Virus record (IMG/VR): IMGVR_UViG_3300042294_004190
Location: 1 to 42,432 of that record
DNA: 42,432 bases
DNA from: a virus
Reading direction: 5' to 3' (one strand)
Below are positions 10,253-36,546 of this stretch, piece after piece (the stretch's first letter is position 1; each line of letters opens with the position of its first letter). A program made the translations under genes and the position numbers. Below the pieces are notes generated by a model, which saw only the letters and a list, made by a program, of their open reading frames with translations, made no database searches and was not told the origin of the DNA.

Positions 10253-10767
10253 AGTACGATAAATTTGGGCAAGGCTATGTGTCTAGCACAGAGTTGTGCG
10301 ATTTACTTTATAAAAATCCAGACATTGATTTAAATTTGTTTTATGTTGAAGATTGGAGTCAATACAACAGCGCAGTCCACACAACCTTTGCAGACCTACC
10401 GCAGGTCAAACAATATCATCCTTACCCAGATGATTATTCTGTTGATGTATTTCATAAGAGTAGACAAGATGTATGGAATATGCCCGCGAAATACGTCGAT
10501 ATGAATATTGCTCAATGGTTGTTAGATCAATGTAAAACAGAAGTTGAACTACAAAGAGTTGGCAGTGAATTACTGTTATATCAAGAACGCAATTTATTTC
10601 CATTATTAAGACAACTAAAATACATAATAGATACTTGGAGATCAAATAACATAGTATGGGGCGTAGGTCGAGGATCAAGTGTAGCTAGCTATGTTTTGTA
10701 TCTAATCGGAGTTCATCAAATTAACAGTATATATTATGATTTAGACATACATGAATTCTTACGATAA
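10249..10767 (+). CDS. Truncated DnaE-like (bacterial Pol III alpha) protein lacking the catalytic core
   Basis: 172 residues. The C-terminal third resembles the entry to the polymerase domain of bacterial DNA polymerase III alpha. A helical ERNLFPLLRQLKYIIDTW stretch is followed by VWGVGRGSSVASYVLYLIGV (residues 136-155) and YDLDIHEFLR at the end, matching the GPGRGSGAGSLVAY...LLFERFLNPER region of DnaE. The protein stops exactly where DnaE continues into the segment with its catalytic aspartates, so it cannot polymerise DNA by itself. The first about 95 residues match nothing I recognise. It may be a binding module or decoy acting on replication or nucleotides. It overlaps the upstream gene by four bases (ATGA). 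Confidence 0.65.
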   Translation: MKYDKFGQGYVSSTELCDLLYKNPDIDLNLFYVEDWSQYNSAVHTTFADLPQVKQYHPYPDDYSVDVFHKSRQDVWNMPAKYVDMNIAQWLLDQCKTEVELQRVGSELLLYQERNLFPLLRQLKYIIDTWRSNNIVWGVGRGSSVASYVLYLIGVHQINSIYYDLDIHEFLR

Positions 10768-26187: not shown

Positions 26188-26214
26188 AAAGCCCAGTATT
26201 ACTGGGCTTTTTTT
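26188..26214 (+). terminator. Rho-independent terminator after lysis cassette
   Basis: AAAGCCCAG, a five-base TATTA loop and CTGGGCTTT form a nine-pair stem followed by a run of T. It closes the lysis operon just before the next promoter. Confidence 0.88.
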
Positions 26215-26216
26215 GT

Positions 26217-26245
26217 TTGACAAACTGTTTGAAAAGGTATATAAT
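26217..26245 (+). promoter_or_regulatory. Consensus sigma70 promoter for dnaJ-clpA
   Basis: TTGACA (26217-26222), a 17-base spacer and TATAAT (26240-26245): both boxes are perfect. The expected transcript start is six or seven bases after the -10, at or next to the ATG at 26252, so the message may be leaderless. It follows a terminator with no gap. Confidence 0.88.
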
Positions 26246-26251
26246 TGTACT

Positions 26252-27118
26252 ATGACTCATTACGACACCTTAGGTATTTCAGAATCTGCCAGTCTGGATG
26301 AAATTAAAAAGGCCTATCGTAAACTGGCCAATCAACATCATCCTGACAAAGGCGGTGATACAACAAAGTTTCAACAAATTCAATCTGCATACGAAATACT
26401 AATAGATAATAATCGCCGGGCACAATATGATGCAGAACGTCGAGGTATGGGCGGTTTTAGATTTACTGTGAACGGGCAAGACATGGGCAGTGGTATGCCT
26501 CCGGAAATGGAAGACATGTTACGTAACTTTGGATTTGCGTTTGGTCCTGGTTTTGCAAATAACGCAGATCCATTTAATGTCTTTAGACAACCTAGACGTA
26601 ATAAAGATTTGCAAATTGAAATAGTTGTTAGTTTAGCTAGCACTTTAAATGAACAAATAAAAATAATTAATATCAAAACCAGCAACGGTGAAATGTTTCC
26701 AGTAGAGGTAAGAATTCCTAGAGGAGTCAGGCCAAGTTCTACAATAAAATATACAGGCCTAGGCGATAACTTTTTTAACTCATTGCCGAGAGGAGATCTT
26801 TATATTAAAATTAATATAGAATCAAATTTAGAGTTTGGAATTGATAATTTAGATTTAATTAAAAATATAGAAATAGATTGCATTCAAGCAATGATAGGTT
26901 GCACGTATGCAATTAAAGGTTTAGATGATAAAATTTTTGAATTAAGTATACCTCCTGGTACACAACATGATACTCGTTTGCGTATTCCTAATCAAGGATT
27001 ATATGTCATGGATCAAAACATACGAGGTTCCTTAATTGCGGTAATTAAAATTCTTGTGCCTAAAGACATCTCCGATTATCAACAGACTACATTAAAACAA
27101 CTTTTCAACATTCACTAA
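26252..27118 (+). CDS. DnaJ/CbpA-like J-domain co-chaperone
   Basis: 288 residues. The ATG at 26252 is chosen because the longer frame from 26213 would start upstream of the promoter. The J-domain spans residues 1-62 with the Hsp70-activating HPD at 30-32 (NQHHPDKGGDTTKFQQIQSA). A Gly/Phe/Met-rich linker (GMGGFRFTVNG) follows. The Cys-rich zinc domain of true DnaJ is absent, so it is CbpA-like (class B). Two C-terminal substrate-binding domains follow, with IPRGVRPSSTIKYTGLGDN and LSIPPGTQHDTRLRIPNQG. It would recruit host DnaK. The next gene is nine bases away, implying joint action with ClpA. Confidence 0.85.
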   Translation: MTHYDTLGISESASLDEIKKAYRKLANQHHPDKGGDTTKFQQIQSAYEILIDNNRRAQYDAERRGMGGFRFTVNGQDMGSGMPPEMEDMLRNFGFAFGPGFANNADPFNVFRQPRRNKDLQIEIVVSLASTLNEQIKIINIKTSNGEMFPVEVRIPRGVRPSSTIKYTGLGDNFFNSLPRGDLYIKINIESNLEFGIDNLDLIKNIEIDCIQAMIGCTYAIKGLDDKIFELSIPPGTQHDTRLRIPNQGLYVMDQNIRGSLIAVIKILVPKDISDYQQTTLKQLFNIH

Positions 27119-27127
27119 ATAATTTTT

Positions 27128-29416
27128 ATGCTGCAGACTAATCCAGAAATTGATCATATTGTTTTAGAGGCAACCGCTTTGGCAAAACAATTAAGTCACG
27201 AGTATGTTACTTTAGAACATGTATTTTTATCAATGGTAAGATACGAGCCATTTAAAGATTTATTAAATGAGTTTGGTGCTGATACAGAGGGATTAGAAAA
27301 CGACCTCGAAGCTTATCTGTTACAGGCTACCAATCTTATTGTAGAATCCAATGAACCTAAAAAAACACATAGTCTAGAAAGAACATTTAATAGAGCGTTC
27401 ACACAAGTTCTTTTTAGTTCTAGAACCCATATAGAATTAATGGATTTGTTTCTAAGTATTCATGCCGAATCTAATAGTTATGCTCATTATTTTATGATTA
27501 AGTACGGGCTTGATAGAGCAAAACTAGTTGAAATTTATAATAAAAGTTATAAATCTGATGCTAAAAAAATAATGAGCAATACCAATAGAGCCGATAAAGT
27601 TTTAGAACACTATTGCACTAATCTTAATAAACTGGCCGAAGAAGGAAAAATAGATCCTGTCATTGGCAGAACTCAAGAAACAACCGACATAATTGAAATT
27701 CTAGCAAGAAGAAATAAATCTAATGTATTAATGGTAGGCGATCCCGGGGTAGGAAAAACTGCGATTGCAGAAGGACTAGCTTTATCAATTGTAACAAAAA
27801 CTGTTCCTGAATATTTACATGATTACACTGTGTACAATTTAGATATTGGCACTCTACTAGCAGGCAGTAAATACCGCGGAGATTTTGAAGAAAAAATACA
27901 GGAAATAATTCAAGCACTGAATGTAAAATCAAAAACAATATTGTTCATTGATGAAGCACATCAAATGCGCGGAGCAGGTGCTGGTAGTCAGAGTAGTGTT
28001 GATTTTTCTAATATGATTAAACCTGCATTAAGTAAAGGCAAAATTAAAGTTATTGCGAGCACCACTTGGGAAGAATATACACAAAGTTTTGAAAAAGATC
28101 GTGCTTTGATGCGCAGATTTCAGCGAGTTACTATAGATGAACCTAGGCCAGAAATAGCAAAAGAAATATTGTATGGATTAAGATTCGCATTTGAAAAATT
28201 TCATGGTGGTAAGGTACTAGATGAAGCTATTGAGGCAGCAGTTGACCTATCTGTCAGATATCAAACAGATAAAAAATTGCCTGACAAAGCTATAGATTTA
28301 ATTGATGCATGTTGTGCTAAAAATAAAATACGCAGCACTATTTGGACTGTTACACGTAGTGACATAATTACCTCTATAAGTAAAATTACTCAAATACCTG
28401 TTGACCAATTGGGAGAACAACAAAACAGTAATGGCATAGCAACATTAGAGGAAAAAATTAAAGATAGACTGTATGGTCAAGACAATGCAGTTGATAATGT
28501 ATTAGAAAAAATATATGTAAGCAAAGCAGGATTAAAAACATTGAATAAACCAATTGGCAATTTTTTGTTTCTTGGCCCAACTGGTACAGGTAAGACCGAA
28601 TTGGCAAAACTGCTTTCTGAATATCTTGGCATGAAATTACTTAGATATGATATGAGTGAATATCAAGAAAGACATACAGTGGCAAAATTAATTGGTGCTC
28701 CTCCTGGTTATGTAGGCTATGAGGATGGTAATCTTGGAGGTGGTTTACTTATTTCTGATATAGAAAAAAATCCAAACTGTTTGATATTAATGGATGAAAT
28801 AGAAAAGGCTCATCCAGATGTAAGTAATATTTTACTTCAAATGATGGATGAAGGCACAGTTACTAGCAGCAATGGTAAAAAAGCAGATTGTAGAAACGCA
28901 ATAATTATATTAACATCTAATCTTGGAGCAGCAGATAACGAACGAAATACAATTGGATTTACTACAAGTCTAGACAAAGAAGGCGAAGATGATCGAGCAG
29001 TCAAGGACTTTTTTAAACCTGAATTTAGAAATAGATTAGACGGCGTAATTAAGTTTAATAAATTGAATCACTTAAGCATAAGAAAAATTGTAAACAAATT
29101 TATTTCTGAATTGAATGACTTGCTGCAAGAAAAACAGATGCGTGTACGGCTTACAGAAAAAGCAGTTGATGAATTAATTGCAACTGGGTTTGATTCAAAA
29201 ATGGGTGCCAGACCTTTACAAAGAAAAATTAACGAGGTTATTAAAGTACCTCTCAGTAAAAAAATATTATTTGACAATTTAATGCAAGGCACAACAATCA
29301 TAATTGATTTTGCAGATAACAATTTTATTTTTCAATCAGTAGAAACATCTAACTTTCAACATAGAATAGACGAAAATGGATACATCGTTTTGGAAGCACC
29401 AGTCGCCCAATATTGA
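27128..29416 (+). CDS. ClpA-like AAA+ unfoldase with a ClpP-docking-type loop
   Basis: 762 residues, the size of ClpA (758). An N-terminal Clp-N domain (LSHEYVTLEHVFLSM) precedes two AAA+ domains. D1 has Walker A GDPGVGKT (204-211), pore loop KYRG (248-251) and Walker B LFIDEAH (272-278). D2 has Walker A GPTGTGKT (483-490), pore loop GYVG (527-530) and Walker B LILMDEIEKAH (552-562). There is no ClpB-type middle coiled coil. NERNTIGF (604-611) sits where ClpA and ClpX carry the IGL/IGF loop that binds ClpP. No ClpP is in the window, so use of host ClpP is the simplest idea. Confidence 0.88.
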   Translation: MLQTNPEIDHIVLEATALAKQLSHEYVTLEHVFLSMVRYEPFKDLLNEFGADTEGLENDLEAYLLQATNLIVESNEPKKTHSLERTFNRAFTQVLFSSRTHIELMDLFLSIHAESNSYAHYFMIKYGLDRAKLVEIYNKSYKSDAKKIMSNTNRADKVLEHYCTNLNKLAEEGKIDPVIGRTQETTDIIEILARRNKSNVLMVGDPGVGKTAIAEGLALSIVTKTVPEYLHDYTVYNLDIGTLLAGSKYRGDFEEKIQEIIQALNVKSKTILFIDEAHQMRGAGAGSQSSVDFSNMIKPALSKGKIKVIASTTWEEYTQSFEKDRALMRRFQRVTIDEPRPEIAKEILYGLRFAFEKFHGGKVLDEAIEAAVDLSVRYQTDKKLPDKAIDLIDACCAKNKIRSTIWTVTRSDIITSISKITQIPVDQLGEQQNSNGIATLEEKIKDRLYGQDNAVDNVLEKIYVSKAGLKTLNKPIGNFLFLGPTGTGKTELAKLLSEYLGMKLLRYDMSEYQERHTVAKLIGAPPGYVGYEDGNLGGGLLISDIEKNPNCLILMDEIEKAHPDVSNILLQMMDEGTVTSSNGKKADCRNAIIILTSNLGAADNERNTIGFTTSLDKEGEDDRAVKDFFKPEFRNRLDGVIKFNKLNHLSIRKIVNKFISELNDLLQEKQMRVRLTEKAVDELIATGFDSKMGARPLQRKINEVIKVPLSKKILFDNLMQGTTIIIDFADNNFIFQSVETSNFQHRIDENGYIVLEAPVAQY

Positions 29417-31742: not shown

Positions 31743-31750
31743 ACTAAATA
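31743..31750 (+). promoter_or_regulatory. Putative late promoter (ACTAAATA)
   Basis: ACTAAATAC lies 22-29 bases before the ATG at 31772, in intergenic DNA. It differs by one base from the NATAAATA pattern. Confidence 0.45.
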
Positions 31751-31771: not shown

Positions 31772-32677
31772 ATGTTTATTACTGATTTATTTGAATCCTA
31801 TGTAGCAGAAGCCGGCCCGCAGTTGGTAGTACTTTATCCGGGCCGTTTTCAACCTTTCCATCTTGGACACAATGATGTATTCCGTAGTCTTCAAGCAAAG
31901 TTTGGTCGAGACAATGTGTACATTGCTACTAGCAATAAAGTAGAACTTCCTAAAAGTCCTTTTAACTTTTCTGAAAAAACTGTATTCATGAATGCAGCTG
32001 GTGTGCCCAGTGACCGCATCATTGAAGTAACAAATCCTTACAAACTACCAGAACCTCAGTTCAATCCAGCTAACACAATTTTTGTAGCAGCAGTGGGTGC
32101 TCCTGATCGAGACCGATTACGCCCCGATAGCCTAAAAAAAGATGGAAGTCCTGGGTATTTTAAAACTTTTGAAAGTTTAGATAAATGTTTAACTGCTGAC
32201 AAGCACGGGTATGTAATAATAGCAGATGAGCGACAAAAAATTATTAATATAAACGGCAAACCAGTAGACGTAAGTCATGGAACGCCTGCCAGGGCAGCAT
32301 GGAACGCTGTTAGAGATAATTCCAAAGGCAGAACAGAATATCTACTACAAATGTTCGGCAGAGATGATCCTGAACTAGGACGCATCTTAGACAAAATACC
32401 ACAAACAGTAAATGAAGAAGCAGCAGGTGTTGGTGTAATCGCCAAAAAAGGACAAGAAAAAGATCCTCGTTACATGATGAGTTTGACCAAAGATATCCGC
32501 CCCGGAGAAGTAGGCCGCCAATTGAAGAAAATGCATTTGGCTGACAGTGTAGAACAGTTACAAGAACAAATTGCTACACTAAAAGAAAAATGGAGTGCCA
32601 AATACAAGCGGTCAATTAATTGTAATAGCCCACGAGGATTCAGTCAAAGAGCCCATTGTCAAGGCAGGAAAAAATAA
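31772..32677 (+). CDS. NMNAT/NadR-like nucleotidyltransferase with a possible capsid-targeting leader
   Basis: 301 residues. Residues 18-35 (LVVLYPGRFQPFHLGHND) contain the nucleotidyltransferase GRFQPFHLGH motif that binds ATP, as in NMN adenylyltransferases. Later core segments include NVYIATSNKVELPKSPFNFS. The matching C-terminal ISSSTxR signature was not confirmed. The N-terminus MFITDLFESYVAEAG looks like a short leader ending in an xxE/A site of T4 prohead-protease type. The C-terminus (NCNSPRGFSQRAHCQGRKK) is a basic Cys/His tail I associate with other marine phage proteins. The pathway may be NAD metabolism. Its stop shares one base with the next gene. Confidence 0.75.
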   Translation: MFITDLFESYVAEAGPQLVVLYPGRFQPFHLGHNDVFRSLQAKFGRDNVYIATSNKVELPKSPFNFSEKTVFMNAAGVPSDRIIEVTNPYKLPEPQFNPANTIFVAAVGAPDRDRLRPDSLKKDGSPGYFKTFESLDKCLTADKHGYVIIADERQKIININGKPVDVSHGTPARAAWNAVRDNSKGRTEYLLQMFGRDDPELGRILDKIPQTVNEEAAGVGVIAKKGQEKDPRYMMSLTKDIRPGEVGRQLKKMHLADSVEQLQEQIATLKEKWSAKYKRSINCNSPRGFSQRAHCQGRKK

Positions 32678-32991
32678 TGGAGCATAAACTGCAAGTAGCA
32701 GTCCATGCTCATTGGAATGATACTGCGCCAGTTTATAGAATATATGTTGATGATGATTTGTTGACTGAAAGAACTTTTGGATATCAATCATATCAGTTTT
32801 ACATCCTAGAACATATACTTTGCAATCTTGACGATGGAACACATTATCTAAAATTGGTAAATTTAAGCCACAACAGCAGATTTGAGTTAAAAAATTTCCA
32901 CGTTGATGACCAACCTATTGCAGCAAATAATCTTAGTATGACACCCAACGAGTTGTTATGGAATTTTACAATTGATAATCTATTACGTTAA
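32677..32991 (+). CDS. Small beta protein resembling a carbohydrate-binding module
   Basis: 104 residues from the ATG at 32677, which overlaps the upstream TAA by one base; an upstream TTG is rejected. Strand-rich: KLQVAVHAHWNDTAPVYRIY, then HYLKLVNLSHNSRFELKNFH. It has the same two-sheet plan as the protein at 31263, so the two may be related binding modules that flank the nucleotidyltransferase gene. No catalytic residues. Confidence 0.58.
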   Translation: MEHKLQVAVHAHWNDTAPVYRIYVDDDLLTERTFGYQSYQFYILEHILCNLDDGTHYLKLVNLSHNSRFELKNFHVDDQPIAANNLSMTPNELLWNFTIDNLLR

Positions 32992-32999
32992 AATAAATA
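32992..32999 (+). promoter_or_regulatory. Putative late promoter (AATAAATA)
   Basis: AATAAATAT directly follows the upstream stop, 21-28 bases before the ATG at 33020. Confidence 0.55.
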
Positions 33000-33019
33000 T
33001 ATTAAATTAGGAAACACAA

Positions 33020-33985
33020 ATGAAACCAACAGAATTTATCGTAGAAAACAGCATCATTGCACAGGAAGCCGATGACATGCATCGTGATCATGAAGTGCAA
33101 ATGGCCCGTAGTCAATTGTATAGTGCAGCACAAGCAGCTATTCAAATCCACAAAATGCTTAAAAATGTTAGCGAAATGGAAGGACTAGAAGGATGGGTTC
33201 AAACCAAGATTGCAGTGGCAAGTGAGTATTTAGAAAGTGTTCAAGATTATCTAAAGTACGAACAAGTAAGTCAAGAATCAGAAATGATGCCGTTTGCTGA
33301 GGCCGCTGCTGACTATGCGTTGAATGAACTAATTTCTAAAAAAGTTAAAGAACAATCTTCAGCAATACCTCAAATTCCTGCTCTTCCTCCAACAGACGGA
33401 GAACTTAATCAAGGCGAAAGAGTCTATTCTAATCCCGATGGTACAAGATCATATGCTGGAGCATTTGGCAAATTTACATATGATAAATCTGGTAAAGCAA
33501 GAGAATATTCAGCACCAGATCTTGGCGGCCTGTCTCAACGAACTAATTTAGACACAGGTGAAAAAACTACCACTGTATATACAGGTGATATGGCAGCTTC
33601 AACTACACCTCGAAGAGATCAAAGCACAGTAAAAACTGCAATGGCTAGAGTCGGCCCGAATACAGTAGATATGGCACAAGGTATTGGTTTTGGAGGCGCA
33701 GGCAAAGATGTTCAACAAGGTGGCAACCAAGTTGTAAGTATTACTAATCCTCAAAACAAGACTCACAGCTTTGCAGGTAGAGTTCCTAGTTCACAAGAAA
33801 TTGGCAGCTCATTGAATGAGAAAAATAAAAAATTAAAGGAGACAGCGACCGGCGGTGGATCAAGTTCAGGCGGCATCGCTACATCATTGAGCGGGCCCGG
33901 TCATAAAAAAACATCAGGTGTGCCAAAAAAACTAGGCAATGCTCATAAGCCAAAGCGTGTTGAAGTAGGCAAAGGTGTTTACTAA
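33020..33985 (+). CDS. Unknown modular protein, possible internal virion protein
   Basis: 321 residues. The start KPTEFIVENSIIAQEADD resembles a T4 internal-protein leader (MKTYxEFI type) ending in a QE/A site. A helical region follows (residues 20-110, YSAAQAAIQIHKMLKNVSEM), then a Gly/Thr/Gln-rich low-complexity region (residues 120-320) with a basic end (HKKTSGVPKKLGNAHKPKRV). Not an enzyme by any motif I can see. Ribosome site TAGGAAA. It shares its final base with the next ATG. Confidence 0.6.
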   Translation: MKPTEFIVENSIIAQEADDMHRDHEVQMARSQLYSAAQAAIQIHKMLKNVSEMEGLEGWVQTKIAVASEYLESVQDYLKYEQVSQESEMMPFAEAAADYALNELISKKVKEQSSAIPQIPALPPTDGELNQGERVYSNPDGTRSYAGAFGKFTYDKSGKAREYSAPDLGGLSQRTNLDTGEKTTTVYTGDMAASTTPRRDQSTVKTAMARVGPNTVDMAQGIGFGGAGKDVQQGGNQVVSITNPQNKTHSFAGRVPSSQEIGSSLNEKNKKLKETATGGGSSSGGIATSLSGPGHKKTSGVPKKLGNAHKPKRVEVGKGVY

Positions 33986-34485
33986 TGAGTAACATCAAAG
34001 TGCTTCTAGAAAAAATGGATCAAATGGCCGCTGCCGAGCGTAAACCGTCAGGTCCAAGTTGGCCGGGGTATTGGAAAGGAAAAGATAGTGCCAAGAAATC
34101 ACGCAGCCGCATGGTAGGTGATGGTGCTGCTGAAAGTGTTGAAGAAGATATTGAATCTGTTCTTAGAAAACAATTTATGGAGTACGGAGCACCCGGCTCT
34201 GGGATTGGTAACGACACTGCCACGAACCCTGCCGAGGTATTTGCCAAAGGTCAGCAGGATAAAGCTGTAAAAGATCAAACTCGCGGTCAAATATCAGGAT
34301 TGGTTGCACAATTGCAAGGAACGCGAGCACAACTGGCAGATATGAACAAACAATTTCCGCAAGGTGCCAATCCTGTAGAAAAAGCAATGAGCTTGCAACA
34401 AATGTCAGCACAAAAAATAGGCGTTAAAAAACAAATAGAAGATCTGTCTGCGCAGATTGCAGCACTTAGACAACAGGCAATGTAA
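33985..34485 (+). CDS. Unknown modular protein with GYWKG-type motif
   Basis: 166 residues. The N-terminal part has LLEKMDQMAAAERKPSGPSW followed by PGYWKGKDSAKKSRSRMVGD. I recall this GPxxPGYWKG...VG segment as recurrent in hypothetical proteins of marine T4-like phages, with no known function. The C-terminal half is helical and Gln-rich (GLVAQLQGTRAQLADMNKQF), probably a coiled coil. Coupled to both neighbours by near-zero spacing. Confidence 0.6.
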   Translation: MSNIKVLLEKMDQMAAAERKPSGPSWPGYWKGKDSAKKSRSRMVGDGAAESVEEDIESVLRKQFMEYGAPGSGIGNDTATNPAEVFAKGQQDKAVKDQTRGQISGLVAQLQGTRAQLADMNKQFPQGANPVEKAMSLQQMSAQKIGVKKQIEDLSAQIAALRQQAM

Positions 34486-34486
34486 C

Positions 34487-35971
34487 ATGTTTATAAATGA
34501 TATCTTTAAGAAAACATTAAACGAAGGCGGGTTTGATATCCCTGAAATCCCAAGAGCGCCTCAACCAAAACCAATCAAAGATAAAACAGTTGATGAAGCA
34601 GGCCCATTCAGTTATGGTGCTAAAAAGCCTAGAAAAGGTAGTGTGGCAGATCTTGCTGCACAAAAGCGTAAAGAACAAGAAAAAGGCCGACAGCCTATTG
34701 AGCCTAAAGACCAACGGGTTGGCGTTGCTCGGGTTAAGAAGGATGTATCAGAAGGTGTAACTAGCCCAGAAATTAAGCAAGCATACGATGCCGTAATGAA
34801 GACTGAGCCTAAGAGTCCCGAAAGACGACGAGCAATTGCTCATTATCAAAGGCTTCGTACAGCAGCTCTTGACAAGAAAAAAGAACAAGGTGTGGCAGAA
34901 GGCAGAGGAAATATAGAAGCATTAAGAACAGAGTTGATGGGCGAATATTTAAACATCTATTACAATGCCCTGGATGGTTGGAATATGACTGATCATATAA
35001 TTAATCTGCAAGATGTTTACGGTCGTGTAAAAAGAAGTAGGGATCCTGTATTACAACAAACTTATAACCTTCTCATGAATCATGCCGAAGAAAACATAGA
35101 TGTTCAAGCCTCAGCGGCACTAAAAGCAATACGAACATTAGGCGATGAGCCCAATTATACTCCTCCGCCAAGACCACCAATGTCGCCAGAGGATTCGGCC
35201 CGGGCAGATGCTTTTGTAAACCAATTCTTAGCAGCATTGGTATCGAATGGTATTAAAACACATCCTGATTGGCAAAAAAACAATGACAAAGGTGTGGCGG
35301 AAGGCTTTGATGATCTTGATCGGTTTATGAAAGACAAGTACGGTCCACAACCTAGAGGTGGCAGCGGAATAAAAACTGGTACATATGGTAGTCCAAGAAG
35401 AAAGCGTGGCCGTCCAACAGGAGCTGAATCGCTAAGTGGCGGCAGTGATATTCCACATGCTGTAGATTTTGATCGGCCGCATTCAGAACGATCAGCTGGT
35501 CGTAAACTGCCTAGATTCAGTGACGACTATGATGCAATAAAGCGTAGTGAAGTAGACGAAGGTTCTGCACAAGATAAACTATACAAACGTCATCAAGAAT
35601 TGCGTAAGAAGTCTGGACTTCCTGATCCTGACTACTATAAAGAATTAAAGGCAAGTTATGATCTCCCTGATCAAGAGCGTTATGCTAAACAAAAAGAAAT
35701 CAAACAAAAGTATAAAGTAACCAACGAAGATCGTGAACAGTATATTGAAGAACTTGGTCGTGCCGGTTATGAAGTTATAACGGAAAAGAGAATGACCTGT
35801 CCTGAGTGTGGTGGCGCTGCTTACGAAGACAAAATCCTAGCAGAGAAACAGGATGCTTGTTATCACAAAGTAAAGAGTCGTTATAAAGTATGGCCAAGTG
35901 CCTATGCATCAGGTGCGCTAGTACGCTGCCGTAAAAAAGGCGCAAAGAATTGGGGCAACAAAAGTAAATGA
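34487..35971 (+). CDS. Modular low-complexity protein with VAEG-type motifs and Cys C-terminus
   Basis: 494 residues from the ATG at 34487; the longer frame overlaps the previous gene. The start MFINDIFKKTLNEGGFDIPE again looks like a leader with an LNE/G site. Further short motifs of the same kind recur: DVSEGVT, GVAEGRGN, GVAEGFDD and EVDEGSAQ. Between them are basic Pro/Lys/Arg-rich stretches. Residues 440-494 form a Cys domain: TCPECGGAAYEDK, then DACYHKVKSRYKVWPSAYAS followed by LVRCRKKGAKNWGNKS, a tail I associate with marine phage and giant-virus proteins. Function unknown; nucleic-acid binding is possible. Confidence 0.62.
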   Translation: MFINDIFKKTLNEGGFDIPEIPRAPQPKPIKDKTVDEAGPFSYGAKKPRKGSVADLAAQKRKEQEKGRQPIEPKDQRVGVARVKKDVSEGVTSPEIKQAYDAVMKTEPKSPERRRAIAHYQRLRTAALDKKKEQGVAEGRGNIEALRTELMGEYLNIYYNALDGWNMTDHIINLQDVYGRVKRSRDPVLQQTYNLLMNHAEENIDVQASAALKAIRTLGDEPNYTPPPRPPMSPEDSARADAFVNQFLAALVSNGIKTHPDWQKNNDKGVAEGFDDLDRFMKDKYGPQPRGGSGIKTGTYGSPRRKRGRPTGAESLSGGSDIPHAVDFDRPHSERSAGRKLPRFSDDYDAIKRSEVDEGSAQDKLYKRHQELRKKSGLPDPDYYKELKASYDLPDQERYAKQKEIKQKYKVTNEDREQYIEELGRAGYEVITEKRMTCPECGGAAYEDKILAEKQDACYHKVKSRYKVWPSAYASGALVRCRKKGAKNWGNKSK

Positions 35972-36546
35972 AACATAGAGAACTCTTAGAAGCTTGTTGG
36001 CAGGGCTATCAACAACGTGGTATGAAGAAAAAAGGCGACCGCCAGGTACCTAACTGTGTCAAGATGAGCGAACAAGAACTAGAAGAAGATCTGAAAAAAT
36101 GGTTTAGAGAAAAATGGGTTAGATTTGGCCCAGACGGAAAGATCAGAGGCGAGTGCGGCGGTAGAGATTCTGGCGAAGGTAAACCAAAATGTTTACCAGC
36201 AAGTAAAGCACACGCTCTAGGCAAAAAAGGTCGTGCTAGCTCCGCAGCAAAGAAACGCAGAGAAGACCCCAATCCCGAGCGCCGCGGACCGGCCAAGAAT
36301 GTAGCAACCAAGACTCGCGGTATGAAAGAACAAGGCATACCTGAACTACAACCACCTCCAGAAAAACAACAGGAACCTAATGCGTTACAAAAAGGCTTGG
36401 GTTTTCTTGGTAAAGTTTTAACTGTGAACAGATTGATACAGAACCCTGCACAATCTGCAGAGCAGGAAATAAAAAATTATATTGACCCGTCAAGACAAAA
36501 TCATAGTATAATTAGAAGAATGCAGCAAGATAAAGATCAACAATAA
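35968..36546 (+). CDS. Basic protein with DUF5872-like domain
   Basis: 192 residues, four-base overlap with the gene before. Residues 40-120 contain KWFREKWVRFGPDGKIRGEC, then GEGKPKCLPASKAHALGKKG and a Lys/Arg-rich RREDPNPERRGPAKN run. This matches my memory of the DUF5872 family, found in T4-like phages and giant viruses. Cys in RGECGG and KPKCLP may bind metal. The C-terminal part is Gln/Pro-rich. The start (KHRELLEACWQGYQQRG) has an LLE/A site. Function unknown; strongly basic, so DNA binding is plausible. Confidence 0.65.
   Translation: MKHRELLEACWQGYQQRGMKKKGDRQVPNCVKMSEQELEEDLKKWFREKWVRFGPDGKIRGECGGRDSGEGKPKCLPASKAHALGKKGRASSAAKKRREDPNPERRGPAKNVATKTRGMKEQGIPELQPPPEKQQEPNALQKGLGFLGKVLTVNRLIQNPAQSAEQEIKNYIDPSRQNHSIIRRMQQDKDQQ

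Follow-up and report, generated by a model that had tools for sequence, protein, structure and literature searches.

The internal proteins (IPs) of phage T4 are a classic small set, the anti-restriction and host-takeover factors that this coliphage injects. The T4 prohead protease gp21 cuts after L/I-X-E (PMC9026906, PMC3012670), and a review of T4 has suggested that leaders enable related phages to pack a variety of proteins (PMC9026906); the idea of capsid targeting in T4 is already known. Here we analyse a viral stretch of 42,432 nt, record IMGVR_UViG_3300042294_004190 (the window, by which we mean that whole stretch), in which five plus-strand genes at 31772-36546 encode an NMNAT-like protein (gene start 31772, 301 aa) and four further proteins, named here by their gene starts: 33020 (321 aa), 33985 (166 aa), 34487 (494 aa) and 35968 (192 aa). 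We consider it quite probable that this operon encodes the capsid cargo of an aquatic T4-like phage, docked by its leaders, cut by a gp21-type protease and ejected. Cutting, packaging and injection of the window proteins, and recombination at a repeat described below, are inferred from the sequence and from relatives.

The locus shares with T4 IPI, IPII, IPIII and Alt (PMC9026906, PMC3012670) a short leader ending in (I/L/V)xE, apparent late expression, the presence of gp21, gp22 and gp23 in the lineage, and bodies that are diverse and often basic; its NAD-related enzyme may parallel Alt. It differs from the T4 IPs in having multi-module polyproteins with repeated candidate sites, separators conserved as DNA, module exchange, a second leader type (MF..DLF) and a P1' position broader than A/G. 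The inner-body and ejection proteins of phiKZ and SPN3US, processed by gp175/gp245 (PMC5694885, PMC10052503), offer a parallel in that many internal, ejected proteins lose propeptides to a prohead protease at a short xxE motif. Their propeptides are long and are themselves cut at several points, and in the accessible parts of those reports we found no recurring sites between shuffled cargo modules. The literature that we searched, which left most subscription journals outside and makes absence a weak sign, held no report of capsid-targeting leaders on cyanophage virion enzymes, of cargo polyproteins in which prohead-protease sites recur, or of a DNA-conserved separator.

Leaders and the predicted cut rule

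A first-pass annotation of the window had proposed short leaders on the 31772, 33020, 34487 and 35968 proteins, and all four lie in frame where it placed them. The leader of the 33020 protein, MKPTEFIVE9/ (33020..33046), matches that of T4 IPII and IPIII (MKTYQEFIAE; T4 leaders are from record AF158101) closely, and the form MK..(E/D/H)F(I/V/L)xE9 is present in 20 of the 23 distinct relatives and persists where body identity falls to 40-46%. The 33985 protein (33985..34482), absent from the earlier list, has a leader of the same kind, MSNIKVLLE9/K, with (L/I)xE9 retained in nearly all of 22 relatives. The 35968 protein (35968..36543) is basic and consists of the leader MKHRELLE8/, a module ACWQGYQQRGMKKKGDRQVPNCV, and then LEE followed by a DUF5872-like DLKKWFREKW module; its leader recurs as M(K/R)(Y/F)x(E/D)(I/L)LE8 in about 24 relatives. 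The other two leaders are of the MF type. That of 34487, MFINDIFKKTLNE13/ (34487..34525), takes the form MF(V/I)ND(L/I)FKK..(L)(N/D)E in the 4 relatives that share this N-terminus. That of the NMNAT-like protein, MFITDLFE8/SYVAE13/ (31772..31810), offers two candidate cut sites, E8 and E13: all 13 relatives have M1, L6, F7 and E8, and 12 of them have E13. Because the most divergent of these relatives retain just MFITDLFEA, LFE8 counts as no weaker a candidate than VAE13. We single out MFITDLFESYVAE and MKPTEFIVE as candidate packaging tags. Leaders that varied while bodies were kept would have spoken against packaging; we found the opposite, leaders conserved as bodies diverge. In being short, ending in (I/L)xE (with V or F at P3 in some) and persisting while bodies vary, these leaders appear to belong to the IP/Alt class.

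The lineage's own scaffold indicates which residues a protease of this kind might accept. In its gp22 proteins (I/L)xE(A/G/S) occurs 35 times against 7.2 expected and VxE(A/G/S) 15 times against 3.9, whereas AxE is not enriched (4 against 5.9). The first-pass annotation had flagged V and A as atypical at P3; given the gp22 enrichment V is acceptable, and A does not fit. The same comparison bears on its choice of AQE16/A as the cut site of the 33020 protein, which we reject as the main site: AQE16 is missing from the most divergent relatives, where FxxE9 persists, and the site is probably FIVE9/N instead. The expected E/A or E/G junction was borne out in part, in that the xxE of the leaders is conserved and the residue after it is not confined to A or G. 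A requirement for A/G at P1' can be discarded, since the residue following E13 in the NMNAT relatives is A, D, N or Q, and K and D/N occur before modules.

Could the leaders have nothing to do with packaging, being the usual N-terminal helices of late proteins that resemble T4 by coincidence? They are short and low in information, and similar strings would occur by chance at about 6 of the 288 N-termini of one related genome (G003). That genome in fact has 18, seven of them within two gene clusters, and leaders are borne by homologues detected in virions as well as being kept as bodies diverge, so we regard coincidence as highly improbable. The census is weak on its own, because in a second genome (G013; 10 against 3.5 expected) the matches are mostly not cargo-like. 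A 39-aa protein of SynMITS9220M01 consists of a T4-like leader and a single basic module, MKTFKQFQE/GWSNKYKKSIDC... (module start GWSNKYKK), and this leader is similar to the MKTFKEF of T4 IPI.

Head genes and virion proteins in relatives

Contigs that carry relatives of the NMNAT-like, 33020 and 34487 genes also encode T4-type gp23 (PF07068) and gp21 (PF03420), and the longer ones show the T4 gene order of portal (gp20), core proteins, gp21, gp22 and gp23. We conclude from these longer contigs, rather than from the window itself, that the lineage probably has the gp21/gp22/gp23 setting of the T4 IP/Alt class. MF..(D/N)LF leaders are found as well on an extra gene of the core cluster adjoining the portal gene in relatives. 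A gene of 72-79 aa next to the portal gene starts with MFLAELYQ, MVLTELYQ or MILRELFY (locus L141 5287-5517, L142 8369-8587, L143 8885-9124), resembles the MF..DLF cargo leaders and possibly encodes an extra core protein. In loci L141-L145 gp22 ends in (V/I)..(I/M/F)(K/R)RLAG(L/I), and very similar strings, ELxxIRKLAG(L/I), open or close cargo-like proteins (such as L217, L182, L102 and L104); the shared string is possibly a second head-targeting motif.

The NMNAT-like protein has a domain at 31820..32416 with the motifs GRFQPFHLGH and SHGTPAR; the former is invariant in the 13 relatives except at L31. The label given in the first pass holds: Pfam CTP_transf_like (PF01467) matches over its cut-off (26.4 bits), and the top matches among sequences of solved structures are NMNATs. 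With its (H/T)xGH motif the protein appears to belong to the NMNAT/cytidylyltransferase superfamily, within which the nucleotidyl acceptor, NMN or another, cannot be told from sequence, and we treat it as a predicted NMNAT-like enzyme. A structure model was poor (pLDDT 67), gave weak fold matches (E above 0.001) and added little. A basic module, KWSAKYKRSINCNSPRGFSQRAHCQGRKK, with LKE directly before it, occupies the C-terminal part (32588..32674).

NMNAT/cytidylyltransferase proteins have been reported, by mass spectrometry, from the virions of S-SZBM1 (PMC9146016), S-CREM2 (PMC10665884 Table 3), S-SM1 (PMC3037559), S-SCSM1 and S-CBWM1 (PMC9602691). The enzyme class is common to these cyanomyoviruses and the window, and the window protein differs in its MFITDLFE leader and its C-terminal basic module; the parts of the four papers that we could draw on propose no packaging mechanism. 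Read from the genomes, the virion-detected enzymes begin with MKNFSSFLTE/A (S-CREM2 ORF154) and MRFRQFIIE/A (S-SZBM1). Other non-structural S-CREM2 virion proteins begin with MKRFDAFLTE/E (a kinase), MKDFDSFLEE (a SAM hydrolase), MKDLHSFLTE and MQTFSMFFSE/D (ORF136). Overall, F(F/I/L/M/V)xE occurs in residues 4-30 of 6 of 28 non-structural S-CREM2 virion proteins and 4 of 167 undetected ones (Fisher P = 7e-4). The virion-detected Cas9 of the same phage (OR473000 7704-10313, locus L148) has FASFMAE/AA near residue 25, which suggests that it is packaged in the head.

Modules are shared with virion proteins as well. In S-CREM2 virions ORF160 was detected by 7 unique peptides, and this protein has both the 34487 module DACYHKV..WPSAYASGALV..WGNKSK and the 35968 modules CWPGYEKKGTKK and DUF5872-like. 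These modules also make up the T4-GC119 proteins that adjoin the gp15/gp16 genes in cyanophages. Virion presence in these cases concerns homologues and shared modules in S-CREM2 and other cyanophages, not the window phage. In the P-SSM2 record (L146) the note 'similar to Synechococcus phage S-SM1 protein' stands on gp13, gp14, gp15, gp18, gp19, gp20 and T4-GC119 and is absent from the terminase genes, as if it marked proteins detected in S-SM1 virions; Syn33 (L299) agrees for T4-GC119. The helical module that follows the leader in the 33020 protein (33020..33982), DHEVQMARS...GWVQ.KI..A.(E/D)Y, has homologues within modular proteins of the cyanophages DSL-LC02, S-SM2, S-SRM01 and S-RIM50.

Module polyproteins and a repeat conserved as DNA

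After its leader, the 34487 protein has a modular body (34526..35968) with five candidate internal cuts, whose last codons end at 34597 (VDE/A), 34753 (VSE/G), 34900 (VAE/G), 35302 (VAE/G) and 35560 (VDE/G). The VSEG, two VAEG and VDEG sites that had been listed earlier are present and in frame. Its C-terminal basic module, KQDACYHKVKSRYKVWPSAYASGALVRCRKKGAKNWGNKSK (35846..35968), is preceded by LAE and has matches in 365 phage records. The middle modules have no protein or DNA match among isolated phages, no relatives were found in the bacterial genomes searched, and the window protein has no Pfam domain over cut-off. Among relatives, modules of this type (median length 75 aa) are re-ordered or exchanged (for example in L117 and L054), with many junctions at GV(A/S/T)E/G. 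We conclude that the 34487 protein is, by its sequence, most readily read as a shuffled polyprotein of recurrent basic modules parted by predicted cut sites, with its internal VAEG motifs as separators.

The cut rule holds at most module starts. Counting unique contexts across viral loci, (I/L/V/M)xE lies directly before the KWSxKYK module in 37/37 contexts and 15 residues upstream in 0/35; it precedes the DUF5872-like module in 47/48 (1/55 upstream) and the CWxGY module in 44/65 (9/46), and it lies, as (I/L/M)xE, no more than 3 residues before the DACYxK module in 65/67 (3/88). Because the middle residue and everything upstream of the modules vary, what is conserved appears to be the cut rule of T4 (L/I-X-E, PMC9026906).

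These sites could instead be linkers or recombination scars, in which case the leaders would package the proteins and the polyprotein would be ejected whole, as a 'polyvalent' protein. The GVAEG peptide combines small size with flexibility, its DNA is conserved beyond the needs of the peptide and so might be kept for reasons at the DNA level alone, and injected multidomain proteins of other phages can remain uncut (PMC5512222). Nevertheless, a linker needs no hydrophobic residue at -3 or Glu at -1, and the rule holds in 37/37, 65/67 and 47/48 contexts in which the middle and upstream residues vary widely; a generic glycine linker at every boundary is rejected, since many boundaries lack glycine. 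The same (I/L/V)xE rule is enriched in the gp22 of the lineage, and in locus L247 leader and separator stand back to back (MRATEFIIE/GVAE/G). We think it unlikely that the chain stays whole. The polyvalent proteins described by Iyer et al. 2017 (PMC5512222) are likewise multidomain, predicted to be transferred with the DNA and endowed with ParB-like domains, whereas here the modules are short and mostly unannotated, have prohead-protease-like sites between them and follow T4-type leaders; in 34487 and ten relatives we did not find the 2-15 recognisable, mostly enzymatic conflict domains per chain that define that class. Over cut-off, the ten relatives matched only Sigma70_r4 and, marginally, DUF5872 in Pfam, with weak matches to RMF and ParB_N; these would suit early control of host transcription and translation. 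One module of the polyprotein at L059 7673-11320 is a clear sigma-70 region 4 (E = 1.2e-17), a candidate packaged transcription factor.

Two of the internal separators are conserved as DNA: CAAGGTGTGGCAGAAGGC (34886..34903), which encodes QGVAE/G, and AAAGGTGTGGCGGAAGGC (35288..35305), which encodes KGVAE/G, both instances of the repeat CAAGGTGTGGCGGAAGGC with the consensus (C/G)AAGGTGTGGCGGAAGG(C/T). In 62 sites defined by the protein motif GVAEG, which are phylogenetically non-independent, Ala is encoded by GCG in 53 and Val by GTG in 54, whereas GCG and GTG account for 7.2% and 18% of these residues elsewhere in the same open reading frames (ORFs). Ordinary codon bias cannot account for such conservation, GCG being rare elsewhere in those ORFs, and neither can chance: the separator 14-mer has 52 unique contexts in 2.09 Mb of related loci against 0.005 expected, all 52 on one strand and in one frame.

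Does the repeat then act chiefly at the DNA level, as a site for recombination or a cassette site that spreads modules in frame, with the peptide incidental? The near-identical DNA with its rare GCG codon speaks for this, as do its occurrence in at least 120 viral stretches in a scan by DNA only and the points where nucleotide homology between ORFs stops. These fall on the repeat in both ORFs of a pair in 8.8% of cases, when 0.08% would do so at random, a figure to which the conserved repeat can itself contribute by anchoring alignment ends. On the other side, the GVAEG frame is the longest open frame in 52/52 contexts from related loci and in 108/110 from the DNA-only scan, and many functional-looking sites use other codons or residues (VDE, VSE, LAE, LKE) at the same spacing. 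A merely incidental peptide therefore seems to us quite improbable. ORFs found through the DNA separator also carry leader-like sites: (I/L/V/M/F)xE ends at residues 7-20 in 78/110 of them (71%) and in 557/1420 other ORFs (39%; P = 9e-11), whereas a control position showed no difference. Many of these leaders are plainly T4-like, such as MRAHEFIVE, MRFTEFISE and MRAQEFITE.

Late-promoter-like motifs and the proposed packaging route

T4-type late-promoter-like motifs precede the first two genes on the plus strand: CTAAATA (31744..31750) lies 28 nt upstream of the NMNAT-like gene, and ATAAATA (32993..32999) lies upstream of 33020. In relatives (A/C/G)TAAATA stands at about the same distance from the NMNAT gene in 13/13 loci, and ATAAATA or CTAAATA precedes the 33020 gene in 17/17, the spacing being about 25-35 nt for both. 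Across the window, 6 of 12 plus-strand ATAAATA motifs sit 24-36 nt ahead of a start codon (0.14 expected), at 10764, 21147, 22417, 23539, 30091 and 32993. Many genes of the window are probably under the control of T4-type late promoters, and the motif points to late transcription of the cargo genes, as in the T4 IP/Alt class. Elsewhere in the window, at 26213-29416, a DnaJ-like gene (Pfam DnaJ and DnaJ_C) lies directly upstream of a gene resembling a Clp-type AAA+ ATPase, a chaperone pair unusual in a phage.

Several observations weigh against capsid cargo of the T4 type. No head genes were seen within the window, P1' includes K, D, N and Q, broader than the A/G that the first-pass annotation gave for T4, and some leaders lack an exact site. 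(I/L/V)xE is short and present in many proteins (39% of control ORFs at residues 7-20), in cyanophage isolates several residues often separate the DACY module from its closest site, and the relatives G003 and G013 lack DNA separators. As far as their accessible text goes, two cyanophage proteome papers caution that such virion enzymes might be contaminants, and the published proteomes used standard tryptic searches and report no cut ends. Refining the S-CREM2 leader pattern after viewing the data gave P = 3e-5, and the T4-derived pattern is the fairer test because the refined one was set after the sequences had been seen. Taken with these points, T4-type capsid-targeted internal proteins, as the first pass had supposed, still appear to be the best explanation, with leaders kept, gp21, gp22 and gp23 in the lineage and homologues in virions.

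In the route that we propose, as the prohead assembles a capsid-targeting leader would dock each protein on the gp22 core, and a gp21-type prohead protease would cut past (I/L/V/F)xE, freeing the cargo within the head. Because the cut rule recurs between its modules, the 34487 chain would split into small, mostly basic proteins and peptides; the NMNAT-like protein would likewise be cut at its leader and ahead of its basic tail. The released modules would sit with the DNA and be ejected, for early host takeover or counter-defence, and the NMNAT-like enzyme might top up NAD+ as infection starts. Phages would swap modules at the separators, where the in-frame repeat encodes QGVAE/G. The fullest form of this reading, a combinatorial cargo system in which one DNA sequence is both a junction for module-swap recombination and a prohead-protease site, so that the resulting mixes are cut apart in the head, we offer tentatively, with chances that we judge to fall somewhat short of even.

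If the reading is correct, the first dozen residues would suffice to mark hundreds of unannotated proteins as capsid cargo of aquatic T4-like phages, and one rule would parse the polyproteins into effector modules. It would also explain the presence of NMNAT, kinase, SAM hydrolase and even Cas9 within cyanophage virions. Were a DNA repeat to serve as a protease site too, effector repertoires would have a new route of evolution, by which aquatic T4-like phages would build new mixes of injected effectors through module shuffling.

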